From IMG/VR virus record IMGVR_UViG_3300030101_002314, positions 1 to 28,311 of that record: a stretch of DNA of 28,311 nucleotides; one strand, written 5' to 3'. Below, in pieces: positions 674 through 17,142 of this stretch. The notes beneath the pieces are model-generated. The model had not been told where the DNA came from, made no database searches, and saw nothing but the letters and a program-made list of their open reading frames with translations. The stretch is from a virus. The translations under genes and the position numbers were made by a program. Numbering within the stretch: the stretch's first letter is position 1; the number at the start of each line of letters is the position of its first letter.

Positions 674-932
674 TGGGAACATCCTCCGACAGAACATAAT
701 CCATGTAGTACCAGCCGCCCTGAGTATTTGGACTATCAAACCCAAGTATCTTATCCATCAGATCCACAGCCTCGTGCAGGTTTCTGATGTCCGACAGATG
801 ACAGTCCTGCGTTTCATCAATACTATTTTTCATGTCTTTGAGATTGTTGCGCGCGTTCAAAAGAGTGGTCCGCTCGTCCTTGCTCAACTGAAATGTTTTG
901 GGTCTGCCCCTAGTTTTTGTCTTAGTTGTCAT
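666..932 (-). CDS. Hypothetical protein with AT-hook-like N-terminus
   Basis: An 88-residue protein. The start MTTKTKTRGRPKTF contains an RGRPK core like the AT-hook motif, which in known proteins binds the minor groove of AT-rich DNA. The rest is a predicted helical region rich in N, L, D and K, followed by a Trp/Tyr patch (GGWYYMDYV). A strong GAGGAGG lies just before the ATG at 932. The gene overlaps the upstream stop by 11 bases. DNA binding is only an inference from the short hook; the family is not recognised. Confidence 0.62.
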   Translation of the reverse strand: MTTKTKTRGRPKTFQLSKDERTTLLNARNNLKDMKNSIDETQDCHLSDIRNLHEAVDLMDKILGFDSPNTQGGWYYMDYVLSEDVPND

Positions 933-1275
933 TCTCTTCCTCCTCTATGGGTTTGCGTGTCTTGATCTTCGACAACAGGAGCTGCAACTCCTCTTGCGCC
1001 CTCCTCAATACACTCTCTAATTGGGCGTCTGGCCCTTCAATGCCGTTTAACTCAGCACATAACTTGGATATCCGATCTCGCTCCATCGTGCTTATTGTCG
1101 TTGCCGGATTGTCTGCAACCCGAAACACACCGTCAGCATCGAAATAGTCTGCTTCCCTCCTGACCGCCTCATAGACGTTCACGTTCGCCTCACCATGCTT
1201 TGCCGTCCATTCCGACAACGTCATGTCCGATGCGTCCTCTTCCATTTCGATCATCCAATCGCTCACTTTGCCCAT
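922..1275 (-). CDS. Hypothetical acidic protein
   Basis: A 117-residue protein, acidic overall, ending in a Glu-rich tail (EEEENDN). Its C-terminal half is helical with regular L/I spacing, a possible coiled coil. The frame opens with a GTG at 1284. The ATG at 1275 is the better start because AAAGGAG sits eight or so bases upstream. That ribosome-binding site lies inside the preceding zinc-finger-like gene, so the two genes overlap by about 85 bases in different frames. No family recognised. Confidence 0.68.
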   Translation of the reverse strand: MGKVSDWMIEMEEDASDMTLSEWTAKHGEANVNVYEAVRREADYFDADGVFRVADNPATTISTMERDRISKLCAELNGIEGPDAQLESVLRRAQEELQLLLSKIKTRKPIEEEENDN

Positions 1276-1393
1276 ACCAATCACTCCTTTTTACATAGAC
1301 ATTGAACCAACAGTCTGAGCAAAGGTGGAGGTCATCCACCTTCGCGTCAGCCCTACTGTCACATCTGTGACAAAACGAAATTCCTGGGATCAT
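1190..1393 (-). CDS. Small zinc-finger-like protein overlapping next gene
   Basis: A 67-residue protein with CHRC near residue 8 and CSDC near residue 25, followed by Trp. This is a compact four-Cys (CxxC...CxxC) zinc-binding pattern. The start at 1393 shares an ATGA overlap with the upstream stop. The zinc module is encoded in the stretch that is not shared (about 1310-1393). The C-terminal 28 codons overlap the next gene in another frame and look unstructured. The unique Cys module and the coupling argue that it is real; the long overlap lowers confidence. Confidence 0.55.
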   Translation of the reverse strand: MIPGISFCHRCDSRADAKVDDLHLCSDCWFNVYVKRSDWYGQSERLDDRNGRGRIGHDVVGMDGKAW

Positions 1394-1662
1394 AGAACCT
1401 GCTCCACTGCCCCGACATAAATCTTATCAGCACGTTTAAAATCACAAACACCCTCCGCCTCGTGCGTTGGTGGATAACTCATAGCTACCTGCCCCAAGGC
1501 ACACGCATCCCAGATCACAAACAGCATATCGTCCTTAATCCACCACTTCGCAGCGGTATCTATTTCACGACAGTAGCCATCCTCATCCAAGGGCCAGCCG
1601 TCTATATTCTTAGGCTCCCAGAAACTCATTACGCTGTACTCCGCTTCAATAATTTTAGCCAT
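1390..1662 (-). CDS. Hypothetical protein
   Basis: A 90-residue protein (start MAKIIEAEYS), with a Trp-rich centre (FWEPKN, AKWWIKDDMLFVIW) suggesting a small beta-rich fold. An upstream extension to 1686 is possible in frame. The ATG at 1662 overlaps the stop of the preceding 56-residue gene as TGATG, which fixes the start. Function unknown. Confidence 0.65.
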   Translation of the reverse strand: MAKIIEAEYSVMSFWEPKNIDGWPLDEDGYCREIDTAAKWWIKDDMLFVIWDACALGQVAMSYPPTHEAEGVCDFKRADKIYVGAVEQVL

Positions 1663-1832
1663 CACTGCACCTCTATCTCTAAACACTCAGGCTCAATGTC
1701 CTCATTGACAATCGAACCATCACACAACTCTCTTTCACAAGCCTCTTCCAAAGCTTCGGACTCGTTACCAGCCTCAACATGAAACTCTACATCATGCGAG
1801 ACCCGCAACACTACGCGATACATCTTGCTCAT
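1662..1832 (-). CDS. Small hypothetical protein, 56 residues
   Basis: A short gene below usual length cut-offs. It encodes 56 residues starting MSKMYRVVLRVSHDVEFHVE. The first half looks like two beta strands. The second half is strongly acidic with Cys near residues 32, 37 and 50. It is tied to both neighbours: its ATG overlaps the upstream TGA as ATGA, and its own TGA overlaps the next ATG as TGATG. It fills what would otherwise be the only gap in this operon. The pattern resembles small phage proteins of the 'YRVxLxVxHxVEFxVEAxNExEAxxEA' type, but no function is known to me. Confidence 0.7.
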   Translation of the reverse strand: MSKMYRVVLRVSHDVEFHVEAGNESEALEEACERELCDGSIVNEDIEPECLEIEVQ

Positions 1833-2137
1833 AGCTCCGCCTCCTCAGTGAAATGCTCATCCAAAAACTCAACCAGATATTCAGGCAAGTAAGTGCGAGG
1901 ACATACGTACCCAACCTGAGGTTCGCCCTCATAGATTGTCGCGTCTTGATCCTTGGTTCTTATGTCCATGATCATAAAGTTGTGACAGCCCCATGTATCG
2001 CACCACGTATCTAGGTTATCGAACTTGGCCTCAATCTCCGTGCGAACTAGGTCCGTGCCGTTCCAGCCGTCACCGTCCTCAAATCCCCACTTGTCAAAAG
2101 CCTCTTCCCACTTCCAATAAATCTTACGAACTGGCAT
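1829..2137 (-). CDS. Hypothetical acidic protein
   Basis: A 102-residue acidic protein rich in Trp and Asp near the N-terminus (KIYWKWEEAFDKWGF), with single Cys residues around 46, 51 and 79. The ATG at 2137 overlaps the upstream stop as TGATG. A GTG three bases earlier is in frame but less likely. The C-terminus is a Glu-rich helix that ends in an ATGA junction with the 56-residue gene. No family recognised. Confidence 0.66.
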   Translation of the reverse strand: MPVRKIYWKWEEAFDKWGFEDGDGWNGTDLVRTEIEAKFDNLDTWCDTWGCHNFMIMDIRTKDQDATIYEGEPQVGYVCPRTYLPEYLVEFLDEHFTEEAEL

Positions 2138-2376
2138 CACTCGCCCCTTTCTTTAGCGCGAGGGTGTTGGATCATGTTCTGAAGATCAATCAAATCCTCC
2201 GCCACCTGCGTGAAGCTATATGTCCCCGTCTGTTGGATGATGGTGACCGTGCGCTCACGATCACCCCGCTTTTTGTGCTGTTCAAACATCTTGAACTCCG
2301 TGCCATACAACAGCACAGGCTGATCAAGCCTCTCGTCTAAAGAGTCATCGACCATAGTTAATTTCAATCCAATCAT
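2137..2376 (-). CDS. Hypothetical protein
   Basis: A 79-residue protein (start MIGLKLTMVDD). Alternating hydrophobic residues suggest beta strands (QPVLLYGTEF, RTVTIIQQTG), followed by a short helix and a basic/acidic tail. It is coupled to the upstream gene by ATGA and to the downstream one by TGATG. Nothing in it points to a function. Confidence 0.66.
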   Translation of the reverse strand: MIGLKLTMVDDSLDERLDQPVLLYGTEFKMFEQHKKRGDRERTVTIIQQTGTYSFTQVAEDLIDLQNMIQHPRAKERGE

Positions 2377-2750
2377 GCCACCTCTCCTAAAACTTCCATG
2401 TCATCAAGATTACAGGCATCAACCAAAGTATAGTCACCCGTCCACACGTCGCGCTTAAATATCTCAACCACTAGTCCGCCATGCGCGAACCCGATCCGAT
2501 ATTTGTAGTCAACATACCAATCCTTGCTGGTGTCTGACACCACACGACAGTCGCCCTCACGGGTCTTGTTCGCCGCAACAAAAGCCGCCGCAAACTCATC
2601 AGCCTCAAAGCGCGGGAACGTCCATGCTAGGGCCTTGGCCCTTTGTAAAAAGGTCGCCGCGCCCCGTGGGTATCCATCCCAATGCTTGAAGACACTGACT
2701 TCATCCCCACTTGCGGGGTCAACAAAAGTGTAAATCGCTTGCGTACTCAT
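2373..2750 (-). CDS. Conserved-looking hypothetical protein
   Basis: A 125-residue protein. It opens with a beta segment containing HWDGYPRG, followed by a helical section, and then a Tyr/Trp-rich beta half (DWYVDYKYRIGF, VEIFKRDVWTGDY). The HWDGYP element recurs in small uncharacterised phage and plasmid proteins in my memory, but I cannot name the family with certainty. The start at 2750 overlaps the upstream TAA as TAATG. Its compact composition makes it one of the more convincing genes of this operon. Confidence 0.72.
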   Translation of the reverse strand: MSTQAIYTFVDPASGDEVSVFKHWDGYPRGAATFLQRAKALAWTFPRFEADEFAAAFVAANKTREGDCRVVSDTSKDWYVDYKYRIGFAHGGLVVEIFKRDVWTGDYTLVDACNLDDMEVLGEVA

Positions 2751-2920
2751 TATCCATTCTCCTTGCCATAAAGCTTTTCTGATTCTTCGGGGGTTAATTC
2801 AAAACGTCCGCACGGTGACTTGGTGCGGTCAGTGATCCACATACCTTCATGCTCAAAACCATGATCAATATCCACGGCCTCCCCCGTGCGGGGATCAGTT
2901 GTTTTAATAACTTTATTCAC
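2750..2920 (-). CDS. Small hypothetical protein, GTG start
   Basis: A 56-residue protein if started at the GTG at 2920 (NKVIKTTDPRTGEAVDIDHG). A GGGAGG just upstream favours this GTG, as does an eight-base overlap with the previous stop. An ATG at 2947 in the same frame would add nine residues and lengthen the overlap to 35 bases. The protein is hydrophilic and has a single Cys in the GTG-start version. Function unknown. Confidence 0.58.
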   Translation of the reverse strand: MNKVIKTTDPRTGEAVDIDHGFEHEGMWITDRTKSPCGRFELTPEESEKLYGKENG

Positions 2921-3431
2921 CACACACCTCCCACATTGCAAAGGCATCGGCCTCAGGCAGAAGGTTCAAGACCACGGCATCTTTAACATCAGACATGACA
3001 AACTCAATGTGACGCTCAGTGATCTTCTTTGTGTTTTTGAAAGATGCGATCCGAATAACCTCAGGATCGTCAGAGTGGGGGTTCTTAAATGCTACCTTGG
3101 ATTTCATCGCACGTTTGAAGTCGCGGTACGAAAGCCACCTATTTACTTGCTCACCACACCATATCTCAAAGGTGGTGTCATGCTCCTCATCATCGTACAG
3201 CGACCACTTGGGCATATCGGTCTTGCACCTCGCCTCTAGGTCTCTCAGGACAGAGTAGTCACCTTCCCAACGGTCCGACCCACCGTGGCCCTGATTACTA
3301 ACAACACCGACACGCTTTCCATTGAAATATACGGACGCTTCGTAGCAATGTGTCTCTTCAGAAGCAAATTCAGAGTGCTTGAAAGCCTTCAACTCTACGG
3401 TGTCACCGTTTTTAAACGTGAAATTAAACAT
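2913..3431 (-). CDS. Hypothetical protein, first gene of the leftward operon
   Basis: A 172-residue protein. The N-terminal part alternates charged and hydrophobic residues in a beta pattern (MFNFTFKNGDTVELK). The middle is Trp/Asp-rich (DRWEGDYSVLRDLEARC), followed by a basic helix and an acidic C-terminus. The start at 3431 has AGGAG seven bases upstream. It is the only gene of the leftward operon with its own free-standing ribosome-binding site, as expected for the operon leader. The divergent control region lies directly upstream. No family recognised. Confidence 0.72.
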   Translation of the reverse strand: MFNFTFKNGDTVELKAFKHSEFASEETHCYEASVYFNGKRVGVVSNQGHGGSDRWEGDYSVLRDLEARCKTDMPKWSLYDDEEHDTTFEIWCGEQVNRWLSYRDFKRAMKSKVAFKNPHSDDPEVIRIASFKNTKKITERHIEFVMSDVKDAVVLNLLPEADAFAMWEVCGE

Positions 3432-3528
3432 CAAAATCTCCTGTTTTACTAGTAAATCCCATCTGATCTACTATCCATATACATAGAAGTAGTACAACTA
3501 AACACAAAAAACAAGCCCGTTCGTTACA

Positions 3529-3549
3529 TATAGTGTTTTCTACGGGTAA
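3529..3549 (-). promoter_or_regulatory. Left copy of 21-bp divergent element, promoter candidate
   Basis: On the minus strand this reads TTACCC, two variable bases, then AGAAAACACTATA. The same element, with only those two bases changed, sits at 3695-3715 on the plus strand. Each copy points at the transcription unit on its own side. The CACTATA end is shared with the core of T7-type RNA-polymerase promoters. It could equally be a repressor or activator site. Distance to the first leftward start is about 100 bases. Confidence 0.45.
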
Positions 3550-3550
3550 A

Positions 3551-3572
3551 AGTTTTTTTATTTTTTTTTTCA
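3551..3572. other. T-rich tract beside iterons
   Basis: An almost uninterrupted run of T on the plus strand (17 of 18 bases are T from 3553 to 3570). It is not preceded by a stem, so it is not a rightward terminator. Beside the iteron array it could be an easily melted AT-rich element of an origin or promoter. That is inference. Confidence 0.35.
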
Positions 3573-3578
3573 AAATAG

Positions 3579-3656
3579 GTGTAACGAGTGTAACGAGTGT
3601 AACGAGTGTTGTTTTTATTGGGTTATTCCCGTTACACTTGGTTACACTCGTTACAC
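3579..3656. repeat. Iteron-like array: three direct and three inverted 9-bp repeats
   Basis: Three perfect tandem copies of GTGTAACGA occupy 3579-3605. Three copies of its reverse complement follow at 3629-3637 (one mismatch), 3639-3647 (one mismatch) and 3648-3656 (perfect). A further 8/9 match lies at 3521-3529. The 9-bp spacing and inverted layout suggest multiple protein-binding sites in a divergent intergenic region: either an operator for both operons or a replication-origin iteron array. The two halves could also fold into a long imperfect hairpin. The sequence shows the repeats; the role is inference. Confidence 0.75.
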
Positions 3657-3694
3657 TTCCATAGACGCGCGTTGCCTTTTATAATCCAGGTGTG

Positions 3695-3715
3695 TTACCC
3701 ACAGAAAACACTATA
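3695..3715 (+). promoter_or_regulatory. Right copy of 21-bp divergent element, promoter candidate
   Basis: This copy is on the plus strand and matches the left copy at 19 of 21 positions. It ends in CACTATA directly before CAGGAGG, the ribosome-binding site of the small terminase gene. If transcription starts just after CACTATA, the message would begin at about 3716 with a 12-base leader. The in-frame GTG at 3692 would then be upstream of the message. That supports the TTG at 3728 as the true start. Confidence 0.45.
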
Positions 3716-3727
3716 CAGGAGGGTGCT

Positions 3728-4273
3728 TTGAACAAGGGCGGTAGGCCAGCAGGGTTGACGAACAGACAGAGAGAGTTTGCTAAATACTACGTGGACGGGC
3801 GCCATACGAATGCAGGCTGCGCGAGGTTGGCAGGTTACTCTCATAATTCAGCGGCACAACACGCGGCCAAATTACTAGACGGCAAATCCTTTCCAGCGGT
3901 TGTAGAACTGATCAAAGAACTAAGAGACGAGAGACAACGTAAGTACGGCGTGACTCTTATTGGTCAGCTCAAAAGATTTGATGAGCTGTCTAGGGCGGCT
4001 GAAGAGGAGGGTCAATTCTCTGCCGCTATCAATGCAGAGAAGATACGATCCGCGCTTGGCGGTTTGACCATAGATAGAAGAGAGCAACAGCATATCCATC
4101 AGTTGGATAAGTTATCGCGTGATGAGATTGTTGCTAGGTTGGCTGACCTACGCAAACAGCACCCACAAGCCTTCGACAATATGAAAAGAGCTGACGATGC
4201 CAAAGACAGAGCAATCCCTGTGGAATTCGTTGAGGCAGAAGTTACCGAAAAAGACCCATTACCAGCGGATTGA
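3728..4273 (+). CDS. terS: Terminase small subunit
   Basis: A 181-residue protein if started at TTG 3728, which has AGGAGG five bases upstream. A GTG at 3692 would add 12 residues but lacks a good ribosome-binding site. The N-terminal region (KGGRPAGLTNRQREFAKYYV, then AGCARLAGYS and AAKLL) matches the helix-turn-helix DNA-recognition domain of Terminase_2-type small subunits. In known phages these bind the packaging site and recruit the large subunit. The middle is a charged helix (oligomerisation) and the C-terminus is acidic. The 3' end overlaps the nuclease gene by 77 bases. Unusually, the large subunit is 2.9 kb away behind an opposing cassette. Confidence 0.8.
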   Translation: MNKGGRPAGLTNRQREFAKYYVDGRHTNAGCARLAGYSHNSAAQHAAKLLDGKSFPAVVELIKELRDERQRKYGVTLIGQLKRFDELSRAAEEEGQFSAAINAEKIRSALGGLTIDRREQQHIHQLDKLSRDEIVARLADLRKQHPQAFDNMKRADDAKDRAIPVEFVEAEVTEKDPLPAD

Positions 4274-4664
4274 AAACCGCACGGGGCAAGGGATGCCTGA
4301 TGTCTATATGTGTATGGATGGCGTACCGATATGGGCTGAGTTAAAAATAATTAAAAACGATAGGGTTTCGGTGTCTATCTCTCAGATCGCTTGGCATACC
4401 GCCCATAAGCGCTGTGGAGGCGTTAGTTTTTTCTTGCTAACCCCACCCTCTAGGGGCGATGCAATTTTGTTTGACGGCGCTCTAGCGGCCCAGTTTCAAG
4501 ACTCGCGGATCACGGCCCTGCGCCCTGCGGCCCTGTATATAGGTGAGCTGGCCGGTGTGCCCTGCGCCCTGCGCGCCCTGTCTATGGATATGTGGTCCTG
4601 CGGCCCTGCGTCCTGCGCCCCTGCTGATATGATCGAGGCGCAAAAAGAAAACCCAGGGACATAG
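4197..4664 (+). CDS. PD-(D/E)XK nuclease, VRR-NUC-like
   Basis: A 155-residue protein. The core motif order is RIEN (E26), GMPD (D35), AELK (E48 and K50) and Q..W (63-66). This is the catalytic signature of small VRR-NUC-type PD-(D/E)XK nucleases, which cut branched or packaged DNA in a metal-dependent way. The upstream SLWNSLRQ helix belongs to the same family, so the ATG at 4197 is kept despite a 77-base overlap with terS. The last 50 or so residues are encoded by GC-rich CCCTGCG-type repeats, give an odd Ala/Pro/Cys-rich tail, and are probably not part of the fold. Next to terS it may process packaging substrates; this is inference. Confidence 0.78.
   Translation: MPKTEQSLWNSLRQKLPKKTHYQRIENRTGQGMPDVYMCMDGVPIWAELKIIKNDRVSVSISQIAWHTAHKRCGGVSFFLLTPPSRGDAILFDGALAAQFQDSRITALRPAALYIGELAGVPCALRALSMDMWSCGPASCAPADMIEAQKENPGT
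4513..4624. repeat. GC-rich CCCTGCG repeat cluster inside the nuclease 3' end
   Basis: GCCCTGCG/GCGGCCCTG-type units occur in three bunches (about 4513-4536, 4559-4580 and 4596-4623). They encode the tail of the nuclease. The same vocabulary appears in the non-coding repeat at 5641-5729. The cluster is far richer in G+C than its surroundings. Confidence 0.65.
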
Positions 4665-4672
4665 TCCCTGGG
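4652..4672 (-). terminator. Terminator for the leftward cassette
   Basis: A perfect 9-bp stem (CCCAGGGAC / GTCCCTGGG) with an ATA loop. Read leftward, it is followed by TTTTCTTTTT, giving a classic factor-independent terminator for the leftward genes 4688-5562. The nuclease stop codon TAG lies inside the loop and stem. Read rightward there is no T-run, so rightward termination is doubtful. Confidence 0.75.
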
Positions 4673-4687
4673 CCTCTTCGGAGAATT

Positions 4688-4825
4688 CTATTGTTCTGGC
4701 GGCTGAAAAACTATCTCAGCCGCTTGGTCTATCTGTTTTGCTTGTTCTGGATCTATGTCGCGCGCGTTTAAATATGCCGCTTCGACAATGTCCTGGATAA
4801 TTTCTTGCGCTTGTTCTTTTGTCAT
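4688..4825 (-). CDS. Small acidic protein, 45 residues
   Basis: A short gene encoding 45 residues (MTKEQAQEIIQDIVEAAYLN..., ending PPEQ). It is Glu/Gln-rich and wholly helical in pattern. The ribosome-binding site TAGGGGG overlaps the stop of the upstream gene and sits about eight bases before the ATG. It is the last gene before the leftward terminator. Small acidic helical proteins of phages sometimes act as inhibitors or adaptors, but nothing here shows a role. Confidence 0.6.
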   Translation of the reverse strand: MTKEQAQEIIQDIVEAAYLNARDIDPEQAKQIDQAAEIVFQPPEQ

Positions 4826-4836
4826 TTCTTTACCCC

Positions 4837-5562
4837 CTAATGTTGCGGTATAAAAATTGATTTTGCTTTGATATCTGAACCGCTACACAATTTGCAGGTG
4901 TCGCAAGTAACGCGCCGGCCGGCCTCTTTACTAGCAGGACATAAAACCTCTAAGCCTTTAACCATATCATCTACGCTATTACCGACTCTAAATGTCCGTT
5001 GCCCTTTATCCCAATAAACCCTTGCTTCTTTTTCGCTGTCTGCACTTATCATGTACAGACTAGGGTCTACTTTTACCCCCTCTAAATCTGATTGGTGACT
5101 ATACGCTGTATGACCTATAGCGTCAGAAATAAGACTGTCCCAAATATATCTAGGGACTGCGGCCCCGTCCCCATATGTGCCAATTCTAACCATGCGATCG
5201 GCTCCTAGTAGGGCAATAGCGGCATGGCCTTCTATTATTGGATACCCGTTTTTTTGTAGATGTTTCCAGACTAATAAGGGGCCGTGAAATAGTTTTACAT
5301 AACACTTTCGACCCTTGGCATGTTTTCCAGGCGCGTCTATTGATACTGCTTCGCCTCTATACTTACAATTTCCACATATAGAAAAATCATGCCCTAGTTT
5401 GTTATTCATCATAGGGTCTAGACCATTGTCTGAAAGAATATAAGTCTGGACCATATTCCCGGTTTTTGTGTTGCTACTCTTAACAATAGCGACCACGACA
5501 ATAGGCAACTCGTCTATTAATGACGGCCCCCTATAAATGATTGCGCTTTCTGCTTTATTCAT
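4837..5562 (-). CDS. Cysteine-motif phage protein of unknown function
   Basis: A 241-residue protein with two Cys clusters. CGNCKYRG at about 63-70, followed by CYV near 87, is one; near the C-terminus a CP...CDTCKLC group (about 205-225) is the other. Both suggest metal binding. Between them are conserved-looking elements (HGPLLVWK, GTYGDGAAVP, IGHTAYSHQ). The start was set at ATG 5562 because GGAG lies ten bases upstream; a TTG at 5568 is also in frame. I recall similar proteins in marine phages and environmental sequences near replication or packaging genes, but no function. A TATAAT-type -10 lies upstream. Confidence 0.75.
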   Translation of the reverse strand: MNKAESAIIYRGPSLIDELPIVVVAIVKSSNTKTGNMVQTYILSDNGLDPMMNNKLGHDFSICGNCKYRGEAVSIDAPGKHAKGRKCYVKLFHGPLLVWKHLQKNGYPIIEGHAAIALLGADRMVRIGTYGDGAAVPRYIWDSLISDAIGHTAYSHQSDLEGVKVDPSLYMISADSEKEARVYWDKGQRTFRVGNSVDDMVKGLEVLCPASKEAGRRVTCDTCKLCSGSDIKAKSIFIPQH

Positions 5563-5595
5563 TTTCAAAATTCTCCGATTGGTTAACGTCTAATT

Positions 5596-5601
5596 ATTAT
5601 A
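5596..5601 (-). promoter_or_regulatory. Possible -10 for the 241-residue gene
   Basis: On the minus strand, TATAAT lies in an AT-rich stretch about 33 bases upstream of the ATG at 5562, predicting a leader of under 30 bases. No clear -35 is seen at 17 bp spacing, so this is only a candidate. Confidence 0.35.
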
Positions 5602-5640
5602 CACAAAACTACACAATAAATAAAACAAAAACTAACGCGC

Positions 5641-5729
5641 TGCGGCCCTGCATCCTGCGGCCTCGCGCCTATTATATATCAACCAGGTCCGGCGCCCTGC
5701 GGCCCTGCGGCCTCGCGTGTATTATATAT
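5641..5729. repeat. Two direct copies of a GC-rich repeat with an AT tail
   Basis: Copy 1 (5645-5679) and copy 2 (5694-5729) both run GCCCTGC, a short variable part, CCTGCGGCCTCGCG, two variable bases, then TATTATATAT. They lie in the gene-free stretch between two leftward units. They share the GCGGCCCTGC vocabulary with the nuclease tail at 4513-4624. The abrupt GC-to-AT switch is unlike the surrounding DNA. Origin and role unknown. Confidence 0.65.
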
Positions 5730-5766
5730 AAAAAAAGACCCCGCTATCGAGCTCGATAGGCGGGGC
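5730..5766 (-). terminator. Strong terminator for the leftward genes 5804-6924
   Basis: Arms CCCCGCTATCGAG (5739-5751) and CTCGATAGGCGGGG (5752-5765) pair almost perfectly, with one bulged base. Read leftward they are followed by TCTTTTTTT. This is a factor-independent terminator closing the upstream four-gene part of the cassette. It separates that part from the 241-residue and 45-residue genes. Confidence 0.85.
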
Positions 5767-5803
5767 CAGTTAGGAAGGAACATATGCATAAGCACAAAAA
5801 AGC

Positions 5804-6100
5804 CTACTTTGTTTTCTTAGGTCTACGCAAGCGCCAAGTGCCATTCGGATCAATCATCCAAATTCTCACTTTATTGTCTGTTAACGCTTGTGACTGAATT
5901 TTTAAACCATGCACGTAGGCGTAAGTTTTAAGCGATCTAGCGTCTTCTTTTTCTATCACTACGCTTTGACCTTTTGTCATTTCCCATAGAAAACCCCATT
6001 TGCCTTTGCCGGGAAGAGGTACGTGATCTTCAATCACGTACTCTTTCTCCTTTCCGGTTTTTCTGTTGATACTTTTAACAACTTTCATTTTATCTAACAC
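5804..6100 (-). CDS. Hypothetical basic protein
   Basis: A 98-residue, Lys-rich protein. The central GKGKWGFLWEMTKGQSV and the C-terminal WMIDPNGTWRLRRPKK hint at a small beta-rich, nucleic-acid-friendly surface, but no family is recognised. The GTG at 6100 is preferred because GGAG lies eight bases upstream; the ATG at 6088 would be 20 bases away. That GGAG is also the last codons of the upstream membrane protein. It is the last gene before the terminator at 5730-5766. Confidence 0.65.
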   Translation of the reverse strand: MLDKMKVVKSINRKTGKEKEYVIEDHVPLPGKGKWGFLWEMTKGQSVVIEKEDARSLKTYAYVHGLKIQSQALTDNKVRIWMIDPNGTWRLRRPKKTK

Positions 6101-6103
6101 TCT

Positions 6104-6271
6104 CTATTCTCCTTTTATTAACAGCTCTACCAATATCCACGACCCGCCTATGAAGCAGGCAACGCAACCGAATAGCACAATTCCTGAACCGGCGAACCCG
6201 TCGATGTATGTGCTAACGCCTACTAGTAGGCTCATGGTCGTAATAAACAACGCGATCATTTTATCTACCAT
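6104..6271 (-). CDS. Small two-helix membrane protein, 55 residues
   Basis: A short gene encoding 55 residues. Two hydrophobic segments (about 5-22, and 27-51 with VLFGCVACF) make it a likely inner-membrane protein with a short loop between the helices. AGGAGAATAGA precedes the ATG, and a hairpin repeat lies just beyond (6272-6315). Its 3' end supplies the ribosome-binding site for the next gene. A holin-like or membrane-modifying role is possible, but only the membrane prediction is supported. Confidence 0.65.
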   Translation of the reverse strand: MVDKMIALFITTMSLLVGVSTYIDGFAGSGIVLFGCVACFIGGSWILVELLIKGE

Positions 6272-6315
6272 TCTATTCTCCTGTGGTTGTGGGGGGCATT
6301 GCCCCCCGTTGGTTT
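6272..6315 (-). repeat. Hairpin leader repeat, copy 1
   Basis: A stretch of about 44 bases, nearly identical to 6548-6591. On the minus strand it reads: CCAA, a hairpin of GGGGGGC / GCCCCCC with a short AAT-type loop, then CACAACCACAGGAGAATAG, the ribosome-binding site. It lies between the stop of the 76-residue gene and the start of the 55-residue gene. The hairpin could end some transcripts, protect RNA or tune translation. Confidence 0.75.
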
Positions 6316-6544
6316 ATTGGATAGCGCGGATGGCATCTTCTACATGGTCTGAGCCATAAAGAGGATCACCAGCCCATGACTCATCAAATGCCATTTCTAA
6401 CGCTTGAGCTGGGGTGTTCTCTGCTTCAAAATAATCCGCCCACATAGCATCAGGCATGTCATGAATTCCGACACCTATTGATTTGATTAAAAGAGAATTA
6501 CACTCTTTAACCCATGAATTGAATTTTTTATCATCACTTATCAT
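6314..6544 (-). CDS. Hypothetical acidic protein
   Basis: A 76-residue acidic protein. It begins with a helix (FNSWVKECNSLLIKSIG), followed by HDMPDAMWADYFEAENTPAQALEMAF. This layout is common in short helical phage and plasmid proteins of unknown function. AGGAGAATAGAAG precedes the ATG and is part of hairpin repeat copy 2. Function unknown. Confidence 0.65.
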   Translation of the reverse strand: MISDDKKFNSWVKECNSLLIKSIGVGIHDMPDAMWADYFEAENTPAQALEMAFDESWAGDPLYGSDHVEDAIRAIQ

Positions 6545-6547
6545 CTT

Positions 6548-6591
6548 CTATTCTCCTGTGGTTGTGGGGGGCATTGCCCCCCATTGGTTTA
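6548..6591 (-). repeat. Hairpin leader repeat, copy 2
   Basis: A near-identical copy of the element at 6272-6315: a hairpin GGGGGGC / GCCCCCC followed by CACAACCACAGGAGAATAG. It spans the end of the 111-residue gene (stop at 6589-6591) and the leader of the 76-residue gene. One base between hairpin and outer arm differs (C versus T class). Confidence 0.75.
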
Positions 6592-6924
6592 AACTGTAGT
6601 GACTCTGTAGTGGGCGCTTTTTGTTCCCTTGTTTTCTTCATAGAAAACCTCAGCTTTATCTTCACCAATCGCTTCTTTCAGCGCTTCAAATAAAACAGTA
6701 GCGGTAGGCATGGTAGATGACTCTTCAAAATATTTGATATCAAAAGCAGGGTCACCCTTGCCTGATTCATATTCTTCGATGAGCTGTGTTCTTAACTCAG
6801 TCATTCTTTCTTTAATAAGCTTCTCGGCCTGCTTGATTTTTGCCCAACGAATAATCTTGTTGTCTTTGCTAGTTAGTTGGGCGTCGATTGTATCAAGCAT
6901 TTTCTCATATCTTTTGTTAGGCAT
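6589..6924 (-). CDS. Hypothetical helical protein, first gene of the cassette
   Basis: A 111-residue protein. The first 55 residues form a Lys/Glu-rich helix (IIRWAKIKQAEKLIKERMTE), and the rest is a mixed domain ending KSAHYRVTTV. GGAG lies eight bases before the ATG at 6924. The shape resembles small host-takeover or inhibitor proteins, which is only an impression. The divergent control region 6925-7187 lies directly upstream, so this gene leads the leftward cassette. Confidence 0.65.
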   Translation of the reverse strand: MPNKRYEKMLDTIDAQLTSKDNKIIRWAKIKQAEKLIKERMTELRTQLIEEYESGKGDPAFDIKYFEESSTMPTATVLFEALKEAIGEDKAEVFYEENKGTKSAHYRVTTV

Positions 6925-6956
6925 CTCAAATTCTCCGTTTAAAAACTACTTACCGT

Positions 6957-6976
6957 TATTGGTACATATACCAATA
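6957..6976. promoter_or_regulatory. Operator-like dyad in the divergent region
   Basis: A perfect inverted repeat TATTGGTA-CATA-TACCAATA lies 33 bases upstream of the cassette's first ATG. This is a typical spot for repressor binding over a promoter. Weak flanking CCG/CGG symmetry extends it. No regulator gene is identified in the window. Confidence 0.55.
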
Positions 6977-7028
6977 CACGGGTTTTACACAAAAGAAAAC
7001 CCCAAAAACACAATCAAACACAATTAAC

Positions 7029-7187: not shown

Positions 7188-8672
7188 ATGAACCAGGTCC
7201 TAGATGCGATACCCGAGGATGATCTTCGTGAGATGCTGTTACTAGAGCAGCAGTTGAGCCTCCTTGAGACGAGGGAGAAGGCCCAAGAAGATTTCATGCA
7301 GTACGTACAGCACGTGTATGACGGGTTTATTGTTGGGCGGCACCATCGGATTATTGCAGAAAAGTTAGAGCGCATAGCTTCTGGCGACTTGAAGCGGTTG
7401 ATTGTGAACATGCCGCCTCGTCACAGTAAGTCTGAGTTTGCTTCGTACTTGATGCCTTCGTGGTTCTTGGGCCGCAATCCTAAGTTAAAGATCATTCAGG
7501 CCACGATGAACACTGAGCTTGCTGTGAGGTTTGGCCGTAAGGTCAGGGATTTGATTGCGGATCCTATATACAGGGAGATTTTTCCAGACACGGACTTGAA
7601 ACAGGACAGTCAGGCTGCTGGTCGATGGGAGACGAGTGTAGGCGGGGAGTATTTTGCGGCTGGTGTTGGAGCTGCGATGACTGGTCGTGGTGGTGATTTG
7701 GTAATTATTGACGATCCGCACTCGGAACAAGATGCTTTATCCTCGACTGCTTATGACAGAACCTATGAGTGGTACACTTCGGGTCCGAGACAGCGTCTTC
7801 AGCCTGGTGGTTCGATCATAATTGTGCAGACCAGGTGGTCGAAGAAGGACTTGACTGGCCGTTTGTTGCAGGCGCAGGCCCTAGATTTGATGGCAGATCA
7901 GTGGGAGGTAGTAGAATTTCCTGCAATTATGCCGTCTGACGAGCCTTTGTGGCCTGAGTTTTGGAAAAAAGAAGAATTATTGAAGGTTAAGGCGTCACTT
8001 TCGCTAGGAAAGTGGAACGCGCAGTGGCAGCAGAACCCGGTTTCGGAGGAAACTGCTCTGATTAAGCGCGAATGGTGGAACGAGTGGGAAGAAGAGGAGG
8101 TTCCGGCGCTTCAATATGTGATTCAGTCTTATGATACGGCGTATAGTAAGAAGGAAACGGCTGATTACTCTGCTATTACGACGTGGGGCGTGTTTGAGCC
8201 GCATGGAAATGGGGACCAGCACCTGATTTTGATGGATGCAAAGAAGGGTCGGTGGAGTTTTCCTGAATTGAAGCAGATTGCTGTGGAGGAGAACGACTAT
8301 TGGGAGCCTGACATGATGTTGATTGAGGCGAAGGGTTCTGGAACTCCGTTGGCTGATGAGATGAGACTACAAAATTTGCCTGTTACTACCTATTCGCCTG
8401 GTCGCCGGAAGGGTGGGGGTGGAATTGACAAGACTACTCGCATGCATATGGCTTCGCCCATATTTGAATCGGGCAAAGTGTGGTATCCTAAGGGTAGAAA
8501 GTTTGCAGAAGAAGTGATCGAGGAGGTTGCTTCTTTTCCCAATGGCGATCATGATGACTTTTGTGATAGCATGACGATGGCACTGATGCGTTTTAGGCAG
8601 GGCGGGTTTATTAGCCTACAGGGCGAGGAACTTGAGGACTGGCTTCCTGCCAAGCGGAGGGAGTATTACTGA
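7188..8672 (+). CDS. terL: Terminase large subunit
   Basis: A 494-residue packaging motor. The N-terminal ATPase has a Walker A variant PPRHSKS (76-82), Walker B LVIIDD (171-176) and a coupling QTRW (214-217). The C-terminal RNase H-like nuclease has an Asp in YDTAYS (316), a Glu in LIEAKGSG (380) and Asps in NGDHDDFCD (454-460). Length and motif order match complete large subunits. The protein pumps DNA into the prohead through the portal and cuts it. No clear ribosome-binding site precedes the ATG; the promoter at 7148-7176 suggests a near-leaderless message. The next gene overlaps as TGATG. Confidence 0.96.
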   Translation: MNQVLDAIPEDDLREMLLLEQQLSLLETREKAQEDFMQYVQHVYDGFIVGRHHRIIAEKLERIASGDLKRLIVNMPPRHSKSEFASYLMPSWFLGRNPKLKIIQATMNTELAVRFGRKVRDLIADPIYREIFPDTDLKQDSQAAGRWETSVGGEYFAAGVGAAMTGRGGDLVIIDDPHSEQDALSSTAYDRTYEWYTSGPRQRLQPGGSIIIVQTRWSKKDLTGRLLQAQALDLMADQWEVVEFPAIMPSDEPLWPEFWKKEELLKVKASLSLGKWNAQWQQNPVSEETALIKREWWNEWEEEEVPALQYVIQSYDTAYSKKETADYSAITTWGVFEPHGNGDQHLILMDAKKGRWSFPELKQIAVEENDYWEPDMMLIEAKGSGTPLADEMRLQNLPVTTYSPGRRKGGGGIDKTTRMHMASPIFESGKVWYPKGRKFAEEVIEEVASFPNGDHDDFCDSMTMALMRFRQGGFISLQGEELEDWLPAKRREYY

Positions 8673-8902: not shown

Positions 8903-9312
8903 TGAGTGACGAGAAGAAAAAAAAGAAAAAAATTATTCGGGCGAGTGATGCTTCGGCTATTAAAAGATTTGCAAAAAAGAATTTTGGAACTGAGTTCTTA
9001 GCGGACAAGACAGATAAAGAGTTACAAGCAATTCTTGATACGCCTGATAGCGTTTTTGGCACATTTAAACGTCAGGGGAACGTGGGAGGTGAGAGAGCAA
9101 GGCGCAAAGCTCTTACAGATAAAGCGTACCCAGACGCAGTTTTGAGAGATTTTTCCGAGGTTGGAGGAAAATATGGCAAAAAGGTGGGTCGTGCAGCTAG
9201 AGATGCCCGTGCTGGTGTGGATGCTATGGTTGAAAAAATAAGAAAAAGTAAAAAGAAAAAAAATGGCGTGGTTATGAAAGCCCGTGGCGGCACATTTAAA
9301 GGAACTTTTTAA
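8902..9312 (+). CDS. Very basic protein with FKGTF C-terminus
   Basis: A 136-residue protein, Lys-rich from the start (a run of six Lys) and again near residues 113-120. The middle is helical (AIKRFAKKNF, LQAILDTPDSVFGTFKRQ). It ends in ARGGTFKGTF, with Lys-Gly codons doubling as the next gene's ribosome-binding site. Placement before the portal suggests a packaging or head-vertex accessory, or a DNA-binding protein; this is inference. It is coupled to both neighbours. Confidence 0.75.
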   Translation: MSDEKKKKKKIIRASDASAIKRFAKKNFGTEFLADKTDKELQAILDTPDSVFGTFKRQGNVGGERARRKALTDKAYPDAVLRDFSEVGGKYGKKVGRAARDARAGVDAMVEKIRKSKKKKNGVVMKARGGTFKGTF

Positions 9313-11696
9313 TGGCACTACCTCCAAGAATGGTTGAACCCGCGATGGGCGCAGGCGGTCCATCTGAAGCAATGCCTGAAGAATTGCAGATTGAGTTACC
9401 AGCCGAGGACCAACTTCCTGAGGGCATAGAAATTGCCGGCATGGAGGAGGTTGTTGAGGTTGCTGCTGAGATGTATAACCACAATGCAAACTTGGCAGAG
9501 ATCCTAGATGATTCCGTTCTTGGTGCTTTGTCCTCGGATCTTCGGGATAAAGTTGAAAATGACAAGCAGTCTCGTGAGGACTGGGAAGAGGCCATATCCA
9601 GAGGTTTGCGTTTGTTGGGGGTAAACTACGAGGAGCGGAACGACCCGTTCTTGGGCGCGAGTGGTGTTCATCATCCGTTATTGAGTGAGGCCGTTACTCA
9701 GTTTCAGGCGCAGGCCTACAAGGAAATGTTGCCGGCGGGTGGACCTGTAAAGACACAGATTGTTGGCGCGCCAACTCAGGTTACTGAGGATCAGGCGCAG
9801 CGCGTAGAAGACTTCATGAACTATCAGATCACTGAAGTTATGGAGGAGTATGATCCTGATACGGATCAGATGTTATTTTATTTACCGCTGACTGGGTCCA
9901 CGTTCAAGAAAGTTTACTTTGACCCGGCGAGGCAACGGGCGGTGTCCAAGTTTGTGCCGGCAGAGGATTTGATTGTTCCGTATTCTGCTAGTGACTTGAA
10001 CACATCGGAGCGGGTAACTCACGTTGTTCGCATGACTGAGAACGAGCTACGCAAGATGCAGGTCTCTGGGGTGTACAAGGATGTGGACTTGCAGGGCGAG
10101 GAAGAAGAAGATCCAGGCCCGATCCGGCAGACGGGTAACGAATTGCAGGGTGTTCGTCCTACTTACGGGGATGATGTATACACATTGCTGGAGATCCATA
10201 CTGAACTAGACCTAGAGGGTTTTGAGGACATGAATGATATGGGGGAGCCTACGGGCGTGAAGATCCCATACATTGTTACTCTTGACGAGGCCTCAGGCAG
10301 AGTTTTGTCCATAGTTCGCAACTATCGCGAGGAAGATCCACTTCTTCGCAAGCGCCAGTATTTTGTACATTACAAGTTTTTGCCCGGTTTTGGGTTCTAC
10401 GGCTTTGGTTTGTTACACACGATAGGGGGGTTATCTCGTGCCGCGACTTCGATTCTTAGACAACTCATCGATGCCGGGACTCTTTCAAATCTGCCAGCAG
10501 GTTTTAAGGCTCGTGGTGTTCGCATTCGTAACGATGATGAACCGCTTGCTCCTGGCGAGTTTCGTGATATTGATGCTCCCGGTGGTGATCTTCGCAACGC
10601 TCTTATGCCCCTCCCGTATAAAGAACCTTCTGGCACACTTGCTCAGTTACTGGGGGTTATTGTTGATTCCGGCAGAAGATTTGCACAAGTTGCGGACGCC
10701 AAGGTCGCAGATGTCAGTTCTCAAGCGCCAGTGGGCACAACGGTTGCCCTGATTGAACAAGGCTCGAAAATTATTTCCAGCATTCACAAACGTCTGCACT
10801 ATGGGCAAAAGCAGGAGTTCCGTTTGCTTTCGGAGATATTTGCAAACAACCCGATCCCGTATCCATACTATGTAGGTCAGAACATACCGGCTGAAGTTAT
10901 GGCGCAGGATTTTGACGGTCGTGTGGACATCATTCCTGTTTCGGACCCCTCGATCTTTTCCATGTCACAGCGTTTGTCTTTGGCGCAAACACAGTTGCAG
11001 TTGGCACAGGCCGCACCGCAGATGCACAATCTGTACGAGGCCTATCGCAGAATGTATGACGCACTGGATGTTAAGGACATTGGTGCAATTCTTCCTCCGC
11101 CACAGCCCCCACAAGCTGTGGACCCTGCTACGGAAAACTCTAATGCTGTTAAGGGAATTCCAATGCAGGCATTTCCGCAGCAGGATCACGAGTCACACAT
11201 CATGGCCCATGCGATGTTCCTGACTTCTCCTGTTGCGGGTGCAAATCCGCAAGGCTTTTTGCTGTTACAAGCTCACGTTCAAGAGCACGTGTCGTTCTTG
11301 GCGCGCGATCAGGTGGCGGCGTTCTTCCAGAATGCACAGGAGGAGGCACAAAATGCAGGACAGCCTGTTCCGTTTGTTGATCCATCAATTATCGAGTCCG
11401 CAGTTGCACAGCAGGTTGGCGAGATTATGAAAGAGATCATGCCTTTGATTCAGCCGGCACAACAGCCTGACCCACTTGTTGCGATACGCCAGCAGGAGCT
11501 TCAAAACGATACGGCTGAAATTCAACGCAAGATTCAAAACGATCAGATGGACTTCCAGATTGATCAGGCCAAGATGCAACAGGCATTCCAGCTTGCACAA
11601 CAGCGTATGCAGGCACAACAGCAGATTGCTGAAGACAGAGCGGATGTAAATATCTACCGCATTAACACACAAGCAGCGTTGTCGAGGAATAAATGA
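9312..11696 (+). CDS. Portal protein
   Basis: A 794-residue protein. An acidic N-terminus is followed by the portal core, with PFLGASGVHHPLLSEAV (about 110-126), then YFVHYKFLPGFGFYGFGLLH and the long helical SRAATSILRQLIDAGTL. The stem and clip region follows. The last 100 or so residues are a Gln/Ala-rich coiled coil, as in the barrel of P22-type portals. Its length is near that group rather than short HK97-like portals. It forms the dodecameric ring through which the terminase pumps DNA and to which the tail attaches. TAATG couples it to the previous gene, and its stop overlaps the next ATG. Confidence 0.92.
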   Translation: MALPPRMVEPAMGAGGPSEAMPEELQIELPAEDQLPEGIEIAGMEEVVEVAAEMYNHNANLAEILDDSVLGALSSDLRDKVENDKQSREDWEEAISRGLRLLGVNYEERNDPFLGASGVHHPLLSEAVTQFQAQAYKEMLPAGGPVKTQIVGAPTQVTEDQAQRVEDFMNYQITEVMEEYDPDTDQMLFYLPLTGSTFKKVYFDPARQRAVSKFVPAEDLIVPYSASDLNTSERVTHVVRMTENELRKMQVSGVYKDVDLQGEEEEDPGPIRQTGNELQGVRPTYGDDVYTLLEIHTELDLEGFEDMNDMGEPTGVKIPYIVTLDEASGRVLSIVRNYREEDPLLRKRQYFVHYKFLPGFGFYGFGLLHTIGGLSRAATSILRQLIDAGTLSNLPAGFKARGVRIRNDDEPLAPGEFRDIDAPGGDLRNALMPLPYKEPSGTLAQLLGVIVDSGRRFAQVADAKVADVSSQAPVGTTVALIEQGSKIISSIHKRLHYGQKQEFRLLSEIFANNPIPYPYYVGQNIPAEVMAQDFDGRVDIIPVSDPSIFSMSQRLSLAQTQLQLAQAAPQMHNLYEAYRRMYDALDVKDIGAILPPPQPPQAVDPATENSNAVKGIPMQAFPQQDHESHIMAHAMFLTSPVAGANPQGFLLLQAHVQEHVSFLARDQVAAFFQNAQEEAQNAGQPVPFVDPSIIESAVAQQVGEIMKEIMPLIQPAQQPDPLVAIRQQELQNDTAEIQRKIQNDQMDFQIDQAKMQQAFQLAQQRMQAQQQIAEDRADVNIYRINTQAALSRNK

Positions 11697-13583: not shown

Positions 13584-13792
13584 TGGACGTTTACAACTTC
13601 ATAACGCAATACCAAAAGAACTTGCAAAGAAGAATAGAGGACATTAGTGTCGCTCTATCGAGTGGTAGTGCTTCTGATTGGGAGGACTACAAAGCAAGAG
13701 TCGGTGAAATACAGGGTGTCACCTATGCTCTTGATGAACTAAAGGCCCTGCTTAAAAAGGCAAACTATGTCGAAGACACTGATAGTACCTGA
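13583..13792 (+). CDS. Small helical protein
   Basis: A 69-residue protein. Nearly all of it is two helices (MDVYNFITQYQKNLQRRIED, then GEIQGVTYALDELKALLKK), which suggests a helical hairpin or oligomer. Short proteins of this type sit just before the capsid-assembly genes in related marine phages as I remember them. Their function is not known to me. It is coupled upstream by TAATG and overlaps the GroES-like gene by 26 bases. Confidence 0.75.
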   Translation: MDVYNFITQYQKNLQRRIEDISVALSSGSASDWEDYKARVGEIQGVTYALDELKALLKKANYVEDTDST

Positions 13793-14198
13793 CTACGTTC
13801 TGGCTCAACGCCAAGCGAAAGAAAAAGCCGAAAAAGAGGCTAAACAAAAAACCTTAAAAGAAAGAGTGCCGCAGCCCACAGGATGGAGAGTCCTTGTCAT
13901 GCCCTACATGGGGCGGGACAAAACGGAAGGCGGCGTCTATGTCCCAGATAAAGCTAGAGATCGTGAGAGCAAGGCAACAGTTGTTGCCTATGTCTTAAAG
14001 CTTGGGCCACTTGCTTACAAAGACTTGGATAAGTTTGGTGAGCACGGGCCTTGGTGCAAGGAAGGCGATTGGGTTTGCATCGGAAGATATGCCGGCTCTC
14101 GATTCCAGATCGAAGGCGGCGAAGTTCGTATAATCAATGACGATGAGGTGATTGCCACCATCGTTGATCCTGACGATATAAAGACCTATGGAGCCTGA
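13767..14198 (+). CDS. GroES-like co-chaperonin
   Basis: A 143-residue protein with a Cpn10 barrel from about residue 38 (PTGWRVLVMPY) to the end (EVIATIVDPDDI). The segment KTEGGVYVPDK (52-62) aligns with the GroES mobile loop: GGVYV corresponds to GGIVL, the stretch that docks on GroEL. A 35-residue charged Lys/Glu extension precedes the barrel and is absent from ordinary GroES. In T4-type phages such proteins replace GroES so that host GroEL can fold the large capsid protein. The location just before scaffold and capsid genes fits that role. Confidence 0.85.
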   Translation: MSKTLIVPDYVLAQRQAKEKAEKEAKQKTLKERVPQPTGWRVLVMPYMGRDKTEGGVYVPDKARDRESKATVVAYVLKLGPLAYKDLDKFGEHGPWCKEGDWVCIGRYAGSRFQIEGGEVRIINDDEVIATIVDPDDIKTYGA

Positions 14199-14199
14199 C

Positions 14200-15105
14200 A
14201 TGCAAAACGAGCTTGCAGAAAAAGAAGAAGAGCAGGGACAAGAAGTAGAAGTTGTCACTGAAGAAGAGAAGCAGGAAGAAAATGTTTCACGTGAAACATC
14301 TGCGGAGGATGAAGACCAAGAAGTAGAGGCTTCCGCGAGTGATGACGGTGAGTTAGAGGATTATTCTAAGTCTGTCCAGAAGCGCATCAACAAGATAACC
14401 AAGCAGTATAGAGAAGAGGAATCCGCTAGAAAGTCAGCGGTTGACTATGCAGAGGCTATCAAGAAACAGAATGATGAACTAAAGGCCAGACTAGAAAAGC
14501 TTGATCAGTCCTATGTTGGTGAGTTCGGAAGTCGCATCGAGTCCGAAGTATCCACGGCAAAGGAAGAGTACCGCAAGGCATACGAGGATGGAGATCCTGA
14601 TGCCATGTTTGAGGCTCAACAGAAGATCAGCCGTCTGGCTTTGGAACAAGCCAATTACAATCAGGCAAAGCAGCGTCAGGCAGAGCAGGCAGAGCGATCT
14701 GCCGCTGAACCTCAACAGACAACAGCGCAACAAGCACCTGCACAAAAACAAGCACCAGACCCTAAAGCTGAAGCTTGGGCAGGGAAAAACGAGTGGTTTG
14801 GCACGGATCAGACTATGACTTACGCTGCTTTTGGAATTCACAAACAACTAATCGAAGATGAGGGGTTTGACCCAACATCTGATGAGTACTATAGTGAGTT
14901 GGATAGAAGAGTTCGCACTGAGTTCCCTCAGAAGTTTAAGGGAGCAAAAAAGGACTCTGGACCCAGAGTCGCTTCTGCTGAGTCCACGGCTTCAAAGTCG
15001 TCATCAAAGGGGCGCAGAACGGTCAAGTTGACACCTTCGCAAATCGCTATTGCGAAACGTCTGAATGTTCCGCTTGAAGAATATGCGAAATATGTTAAGG
15101 AGTAA
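14200..15105 (+). CDS. Capsid scaffolding-type protein
   Basis: A 301-residue protein. It has a strongly acidic N-terminus (Glu-rich, about 1-60), a long coiled coil (about 60-150), a Gln/Ala-rich linker, and a folded patch (WAGKNEWFGTDQTMTYAAFG, then EGFD..SDEYYSELD). A basic C-terminal helix hairpin closes it (KLTPSQIAIAKRLNVPLEEY). An acidic start, coiled coil and small basic C-terminal helix pair is the classic scaffold plan. Such proteins guide capsid assembly and then leave. I prefer ATG 14200 (GGAG six bases upstream) over 14188. Codons 28-33 contain a perfect ParB-site sequence (see finding). Confidence 0.8.
   Translation: MQNELAEKEEEQGQEVEVVTEEEKQEENVSRETSAEDEDQEVEASASDDGELEDYSKSVQKRINKITKQYREEESARKSAVDYAEAIKKQNDELKARLEKLDQSYVGEFGSRIESEVSTAKEEYRKAYEDGDPDAMFEAQQKISRLALEQANYNQAKQRQAEQAERSAAEPQQTTAQQAPAQKQAPDPKAEAWAGKNEWFGTDQTMTYAAFGIHKQLIEDEGFDPTSDEYYSELDRRVRTEFPQKFKGAKKDSGPRVASAESTASKSSSKGRRTVKLTPSQIAIAKRLNVPLEEYAKYVKE
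14283..14298. promoter_or_regulatory. parS-type ParB-binding sequence
   Basis: TGTTTCACGTGAAACA is a perfect 16-bp palindrome. It matches the established bacterial chromosomal parS consensus (TGTTNCACGTGAAACA) at every position. It lies inside the scaffold gene, where it encodes V-S-R-E-T. A chance match is very unlikely for a 16-bp site in a 28-kb window. Whether host ParB binds it is not shown. Confidence 0.8.
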
Positions 15106-16230: not shown

Positions 16231-17142
16231 ATGGCTATTTCTCGCGGACAACTCGCCAAAGAACTAGAGCCTGGTCTCAACGCTCTCTTTGGTATGGAAT
16301 ACACCCGTTACGAAGGTCAGCATGCTGAAATCTTCGATACCGAGTCATCTGATCGGGCATTCGAGGAGGAGGTCATGTTGTCTGGCTTTGGAGCTGCACC
16401 TGTTAAGCAGGAAGGTTCTGGTGTCAGCTTCGATGACGCAAACGAGGCTTATACTGCAAGGTATAACCATGAGACAGTTGCAATGGCATTTTCAATCACA
16501 GAAGAAGCGATTGAAGATAACTTGTATGACCGCCTTGGCGCGCGTTATACACGCGCCCTTGCTCGTTCAATGGCTCACACCAAGCAGGTTAAAGCTGCTG
16601 CCATCCTAAACAACGCATTCTCTGCTGGCGCAAATGCTGGTGGTGACGGTGTTGCTCTGTGTGACGCATCTCACCCGCTGACTTCTGGTGGTACGTTTAA
16701 CAACGAGCCTGCAACAGCCGCTGACTTAAACGAGACATCTCTTGAAGATGCTCTGATCAGCATTGCTGGCTTTGTTGATGAGCGTGGTCTCATTGTCGCT
16801 CTTCGTGGTATGAAGCTGATTGTTCCACGTCAACTGCAATTCGTTGCAGAGCGTCTGCTCGTATCCAACCTGCGTGTTGGTACAGCCGACAACGACGTGA
16901 ATGCGATTAAGTCTATGGGCATGCTTCCTGACGGTTATGTAGTCAATGACTTCTTGACTGATACGGACGCATTTTTCCTGAAGACTGATGCTCCAAACGG
17001 CTTCAAGCATTTTGAGCGTCTGCCTATGTCAACCAACATGGACCCAGATTTTGATACTGGTAACATGCGGTTCAAGGCTCGTGAGCGTTACAGCTTTGGC
17101 TTCTCAGATCCACGTTGCGTGTTTGGTTCTCCAGGCGCATAA
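16231..17142 (+). CDS. Major capsid protein
   Basis: A 303-residue protein. SITEEAIEDNLYDRLGARYTR-type helical motifs (about 89-108) followed by AAAILNNAF, then a late GMKLIVP.QLQFVAERLL strand and helix, match the Mu gpT-like major head subunit group. That group is considered HK97-fold. The preceding RBS is strong (GGGAGG) and a terminator follows at 17165-17193, as expected for the most abundant product. It forms the capsid shell with the scaffold protein. No cleaved N-terminal delta domain is evident, consistent with a separate scaffold. Confidence 0.88.
   Translation: MAISRGQLAKELEPGLNALFGMEYTRYEGQHAEIFDTESSDRAFEEEVMLSGFGAAPVKQEGSGVSFDDANEAYTARYNHETVAMAFSITEEAIEDNLYDRLGARYTRALARSMAHTKQVKAAAILNNAFSAGANAGGDGVALCDASHPLTSGGTFNNEPATAADLNETSLEDALISIAGFVDERGLIVALRGMKLIVPRQLQFVAERLLVSNLRVGTADNDVNAIKSMGMLPDGYVVNDFLTDTDAFFLKTDAPNGFKHFERLPMSTNMDPDFDTGNMRFKARERYSFGFSDPRCVFGSPGA

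Follow-up and report, generated by a model that had tools for sequence, protein, structure and literature searches.

The question raised by this locus is whether an exact bacterial parS sequence inside a phage gene is kept as DNA, and what it could do for a phage. Few bacterial segregation systems are as widespread as ParABS. According to the excerpted text of PMC12704722 and PMC10197239, ParB-CTP loads at parS, from where it spreads to adjacent DNA; it activates ParA, and parS is also where SMC is recruited. The window analysed here, a stretch of 28,311 nucleotides that makes up positions 1 to 28,311 of IMG/VR virus record IMGVR_UViG_3300030101_002314, carries one exact parS, TGTTTCACGTGAAACA, with a perfect dyad. 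A first-pass annotation had claimed an exact consensus match with dyad here and a near-zero chance of such a match in 28 kb, and both claims held: the match extends over 16 of 16 positions and is the only one in the window, where about 1e-5 exact matches are expected (8.2e-6 from base composition, 1.4e-5 from dinucleotides). The further parS sites that it had proposed to look for in the genome were searched for within the window, and none was found elsewhere with up to three mismatches to TGTTTCACGTGAAACA; TGTTYCACGTGRAACA had no match in the window with up to two mismatches. The consensus listed for the chromosomal parS of B. subtilis and C. glutamicum in Table 1 of PMC7022226 is TGTTNCACGTGAAACA.

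Table 1. Features of the 28,311-nucleotide window around the parS site.
Feature	Coordinates	Strand	Basis and remarks
Terminase small subunit	3692..4273	+	phrog_51
Terminase large subunit (terL)	7188..8672	+	phrog_38
Portal protein	9312..11696	+	phrog_1216
GroES-like co-chaperonin	13767..14198	+	phrog_3188, E 4.4e-15; directly before scaffold-like gene
Scaffold-like gene	14188..15105	+	phrog_28737, E 8.5e-78; no known function
parS, perfect dyad	14283..14298		exact TGTTTCACGTGAAACA match
Major capsid protein	16231..17142	+	phrog_371

The genes of the window follow the order terL, portal, GroES-like, scaffold-like ORF, two ORFs without function and major capsid (Table 1). The site is read in frame in the scaffold-like ORF as GTT TCA CGT GAA ACA, or VSRET, which corresponds to residues 33-37 counted from 14188 and falls within the acidic, hypervariable N-terminus. 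The true start may be at 14200, because several relatives begin at MQN. That the site lies inside a phage scaffold gene was borne out as to location; the scaffold label is deduced from the place of the gene between the GroES-like and major capsid genes, its family being without assigned function. The terL leader of the window contains no parS, unlike that of the sister branch described below. By portal and scaffold protein the nearest isolates are Pelagibacter phages HTVC027P and HTVC023P, 023Pt_psg01 and DSL-LC04, all below 60% identity. A GroES gene is annotated at the corresponding place of the head module in HTVC027P, Caulobacter phage RW and DSL-LC04. At window positions 1-7000 the ORFs are mostly on the minus strand and the GC skew is opposite.

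Partition proteins were searched for with ParB profiles whose positive controls matched. HTH_ParB (PF17762) was absent from 100 parS-bearing records (0 of 50 in each of two sets, one set per parS form), and ParB_N (PF02195) from 31 of 32 records, the window included; the record with ParB_N is G077, of 100 kb, the source of locus L060. The check for a parB gene proposed in the first-pass annotation thus came out in favour of a phage without ParB, and apart from G077 the search with PF02195 and PF17762 found no ParB on the replicon of the site, as a self-contained ParABS would have. Part of the phage genome may be missing from the 28-kb record, since the longest relatives measure 45-59 kb; because records may be fragments, the absence of ParB weighs most for those of 45-59 kb. 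Tyrosine integrase (PF00589), a mark of temperate phages, was found neither in the window nor in 28 other records, so that a carrier state stays a proposal; it has two matches in the cultured phage DSS3P8.

Relatives of terL are present in genome contigs of mixed bins, among them SAR11 single cells, Gammaproteobacteria, Maricaulis and Verrucomicrobia. Across 12 such genomes the Y/R consensus is exact in eight, present with one mismatch only in two and absent from two; in the genomes of L338 and L382 some of the counted sites belong to the phage contig. Two of the three SAR11 single-cell genomes, which are incomplete, have no parS. In the Pelagibacteraceae (SAR11) single-cell genome G139 the sole exact site lies in gidB (L671:6948-6963), beside parA and parB, and its ParB is full (PF02195, PF17762 and ParB_C); this genome is a candidate host by way of a phage relative and may not be the host of the window. 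The Rhodobacteraceae MAG G144 has two sites, at the starts of gidA and gidB. These contexts show the phage sequence to be identical with parS on the chromosomes of such bacteria. The phage contigs within SAR11 single cells are without parS, that of G139 over the fetched stretch. Phage sites and chromosomal parS have in common the same 16 bases, the dyad and T/C at position 5, as well as a number of one to five, sometimes in close pairs; both can lie within a gene, gidB of G139 being the chromosomal example. Unlike chromosomal parS, the phage sites are situated away from a bacterial origin, in records without detected ParB.

Since the phages have no detected ParB and their site has the same sequence as the SAR11 parS, recruitment of host ParB is the best-fitting explanation. 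We estimate at about two in three the probability that the site is a genuine parS, selected as DNA, that would recruit host ParB for placement, condensation or segregation of a phage genome without detected ParB. Once the phage DNA is injected, ParB of the host, which clamps DNA in a CTP-dependent manner, would load on the phage parS and slide onto adjacent phage DNA. The phage genome would thereby be marked as origin-like for host ParA and SMC. The host segregation machinery would then place and condense it and, where infection is slow or of the carrier type, divide it between daughter cells. In the excerpted text of PMC13190303, CFP-ParB gathers within ten minutes on incoming DNA of lambda labelled with parS, and the phage still replicates and lyses; this parS is an engineered label in E. 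coli, unlike the natural phage sites. Given this result and the spreading of ParB, a phage with a host-type parS would be expected to become covered with ParB in a host with consensus ParB. Binding and spreading of host ParB at the phage site are likely on sequence grounds, and placement or segregation as the main benefit is put forward more tentatively. The suggestion that the phage borrows host ParB is therefore supported in part, as regards probable recruitment, while placement, protection or segregation, and a ParB sink are indistinguishable by sequence. Our first choice among the functions is placement or segregation, ahead of a sink and of late-gene silencing; promoter control agrees less well than marking or placement with the free position of the site, the presence of one or two sites per genome and the differing gene orders of the phages. 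Should it be routine for phages without ParB to carry parS, host ParB would be a player in infection, be it in placement, condensation, defence or takeover, and parS would be a marker linking uncultured phages to hosts with consensus ParB.

The same presumed binding would also serve a sink, in which replicating phage genomes raise the number of parS far above the one or few copies of the host. ParB would be titrated away from the host origin, and the resulting disturbance of segregation and replication control in the host would be to the advantage of the phage. Few sites in candidate hosts (one in G139 and two in G144, both incomplete genomes) would suit such an effect, and five exact sites each, within less than 1 kb beside terminase genes, are present in L017 (2657-3444) and L044 (10535-11462). 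Many sites would be expected of a sink, however, and when the whole records of 37 of the 80 terL relatives described below were searched, the 21 with the consensus had one site (17 records) or a close pair (4 records), which makes a sink unlikely. The site is in the terL leader in 20 of these 21 records and elsewhere in G120.

The best 80 of at least 600 terL relatives were fetched by protein, with a seed, L083, that itself bears a site. In 41 of them an exact site is found in the 400 bp upstream of terL (two of these have a leader of just 110 bp), and in 2 a T/C-mixed site; 30 have none and 7 have too short a leader. One or two parS sites outside genes are thus present in 43 of the 73 usable leaders of this sister branch. 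The offset of the site from the terL start ranges from -35 to -166, and on a quickly built tree of terL from the 73 usable rows the site must have been gained or lost at least seven times. In 17 aligned leaders, all of them selected for having the site, its columns have 100% pair identity, compared with 71% in the other columns. A pattern scan allowing T/C at position 5 and A/G at position 12, with six fixed or near-fixed flanking bases, produced at least 116 new loci, further scaffold-like genes among them, with window-clade genes at 45% identity or more in 63 of 114 (two duplicates removed). Of 28 distinct contexts in the protein-fetched terL loci, 27 have a symmetric dyad; in the pattern-fetched set 82 of 108 are symmetric and 26 mixed. 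As judged by eye, the terL leaders L248-L327 have the common layout CCATGTTTC..ACAAATAAT..GTGAAAAATGATATG with a promoter-like TTAACTG..TATAAT stretch and with AGGGGCCCC before the start codon, and parS is found at differing points of this layout.

In eight loci (L478, L487, L462, L465, L506, L522, L527 and L528) TGTTCCACGTGGAACA, the second classical parS form, is located 33-99 bp behind the major capsid gene, after what by eye is a terminator-like hairpin and T run. Further positions in the clade are in or just before the GroES-like gene, beside the portal gene, and within long ORFs between terL and portal. Timed silencing or insulation would suit the sites found in the clade, which are in the region of the terL, portal, scaffold and capsid genes, frequently in the leader of terL or just behind the capsid gene. 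ParB would spread over the late genes for packaging and head and hold their expression down until ParB is diluted by replication; the title of PMC5521831 names ParB-linked repression of parS-adjacent promoters. The clustering is partly built in, because the clade is defined by late genes, and against silencing stand sites on both sides of the promoter-like leader stretch (by eye), sites within coding sequence, and microviruses with other gene orders. We consider silencing distinctly unlikely. The leader position in one branch could likewise point to another regulator, from phage or host, that uses the same 16 bases. Such a regulator is improbable in view of the occurrence of both classical parS forms, about 24 bp apart in several terL leaders, and of sites common to phages of other families and the parAB region of the candidate host.

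The first-pass annotation had offered, as an alternative, that VSRET is the conserved element and parS a by-product of its codon choice. VSRET is indeed the commonest reading in ORFs of at least 200 codons (38 VSRE versus 10 FHVK). The best 80 of 96 scaffold relatives were fetched by protein. Four have the exact site at the same place (three with about 95% identity, and L125 with 69%), L135 has it there with one change that breaks the centre of the dyad, and the fetched locus of the other 75 contains no site, be it exact or with one mismatch; 42 of 50 whole records of scaffold relatives are without a site even at up to two mismatches. The proposed check of whether relatives keep the nucleotides was answered by L125, which at 69% protein identity retains every site codon. 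Its alignment with the window comprises 297 codons, of which 103 are identical; the codon differs at 114 of 217 conserved residues, yet all those of the site are kept. The longest run of identical codons, 11, lies over the site, and the second longest is 5.

A tally was made of all site-bearing loci, excluding eight copies of the window and L122-L125; as L650 is the contig of L124, 25 sites in 24 loci became 24 sites in 23 contigs. These are in scaffold-like genes with 37-96% protein identity to that of the window and comprise 15 VSRET (TGTTTCACGTGAAACA), 6 VPRGT (TGTTCCACGTGGAACA) and 3 VPRET alleles, 20 of them N-terminal and the remaining 4 in a second linker, around residues 160-185. Most were fetched by DNA pattern, so that their site codons were fixed by the search; what is informative is the joint change of two residues between alleles and the variety of positions. 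The VPRGT allele corresponds to the second classical form of parS and differs by two joint replacements, of S by P and of E by G; the pair keeps the dyad, and peptide constraint is therefore no explanation. In the protein-fetched loci each of the 16 V[SP]R[EG]T peptides is encoded by a parS sequence, four in scaffold genes and the others in open frames through terL leaders, and none of the 16 is a VSRET kept with other codons. Considering the codons of L125, the VPRGT and VPRET alleles and the noncoding sites in terL leaders, sequence comparison indicates that parS is preserved by selection on DNA, and the by-product explanation was rejected as highly improbable. One scaffold-like gene, L570, has two exact parS, in the N-terminal stretch and in the linker, both read as VSRET.

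In IMG/VR each classical parS form is present in at least 120 stretches, as compared with 11, 5 and 1 for dinucleotide-matched control palindromes. Window-clade genes at 45% identity or more are found in 34 of 120 loci among the TGTTTCACGTGAAACA matches listed, in 28 of 120 among the second-form matches listed, and in none of the 16 loci that the first two control palindromes gave (the third, with its one locus, was left out). Many of the TGTTTCACGTGAAACA sites listed are a short way upstream of terL. Some host sequence is present in IMG/VR, and single loci may still be host DNA; for the window clade, chance or host DNA within viral contigs has a negligible probability and was rejected on account of these controls and of sites among phage head genes and in isolates.

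The site is not confined to the clade of the window. L026 is a microvirus by its capsid and replication proteins, and L006 and L076 join it through protein similarity; L076 has one exact parS at 2536-2551, outside called genes, and its 99-bp terminal repeat makes it probable that this is a complete circular genome of about 4.3 kb. A second group, L009, L010, L051, L071, L094 and L096, forms a cluster in comparisons of polymerase, packaging and head proteins (with the families shown for L096 and L010) and is here labelled phi29-like, a term of our own. The two ends of its member L071, which is 11.7 kb long, are inverted repeats of roughly 150 bp, and each repeat finishes on its inner side in an exact parS, at 132-147 and 11579-11594. 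It could well be, at roughly even odds, that phages of unrelated families (tailed marine phages, large Ruegeria phages, phi29-like phages and single-stranded DNA microviruses) carry a portable host centromere without its protein, which plugs into the host segregation machinery, may sit nearly anywhere and is gained or lost as hosts change.

Some phages use host XerCD at dif-like sites for integration. There, too, a site for host chromosome maintenance is on the phage and a host protein acts on it, for recombination and not for partition. Phages with their own partition proteins are described in the excerpted texts consulted for RedRock and its relatives (ParA/ParB, with 8-bp repeats as centromere; PMC7157519), cyanophage Mic1 (ParA/ParB, with a 23-bp palindrome; PMC7156551) and P1 (ParABS with a private centromere; PMC11652158). 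As here, their centromere is on phage DNA, but according to those texts it belongs to the phage's own set of proteins and sites, whereas here it is the site of the bacterial chromosome. The Staphylococcus phage Lacachita group, as far as the excerpted PMC10286716 describes it, has a ParB-like gene without ParA; its partition set is incomplete, as here, in the reverse manner, with a protein and no described site. A search of open-licence PMC papers, preprints excluded, found no report of phages that lack ParB and have a parS of the chromosomal type. A phage-encoded ParABS with its private centromere is thus already known, and the chromosomal parS on phages without ParB is apparently new.

Whole genomes of 16 named phages were searched one by one. 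Exact parS was found in DSS3P8 only (three sites), and sites with one or two mismatches in HTVC027P, Alcaligenes phage QDWS535 (second classical form) and MW202426; the other 12, including two Caulobacter phages and HTVC023P, have nothing at up to two mismatches. In DSS3P8, a cultured Roseobacter phage (KT870145; L329, L328), the exact sites are at 841, 141133 and 143177, between annotated genes. Its relatives RcXuper and MD18 were searched for parS and have none; V10 has three exact sites, DSS3_MAL1, whose record names no host, has two, and RpAliso has one together with two sites with an altered end base. With two or three sites in cultured Ruegeria phages, the idea is directly testable. The two or three sites of V10, DSS3_MAL1 and RpAliso are mostly in the same part of the genome.
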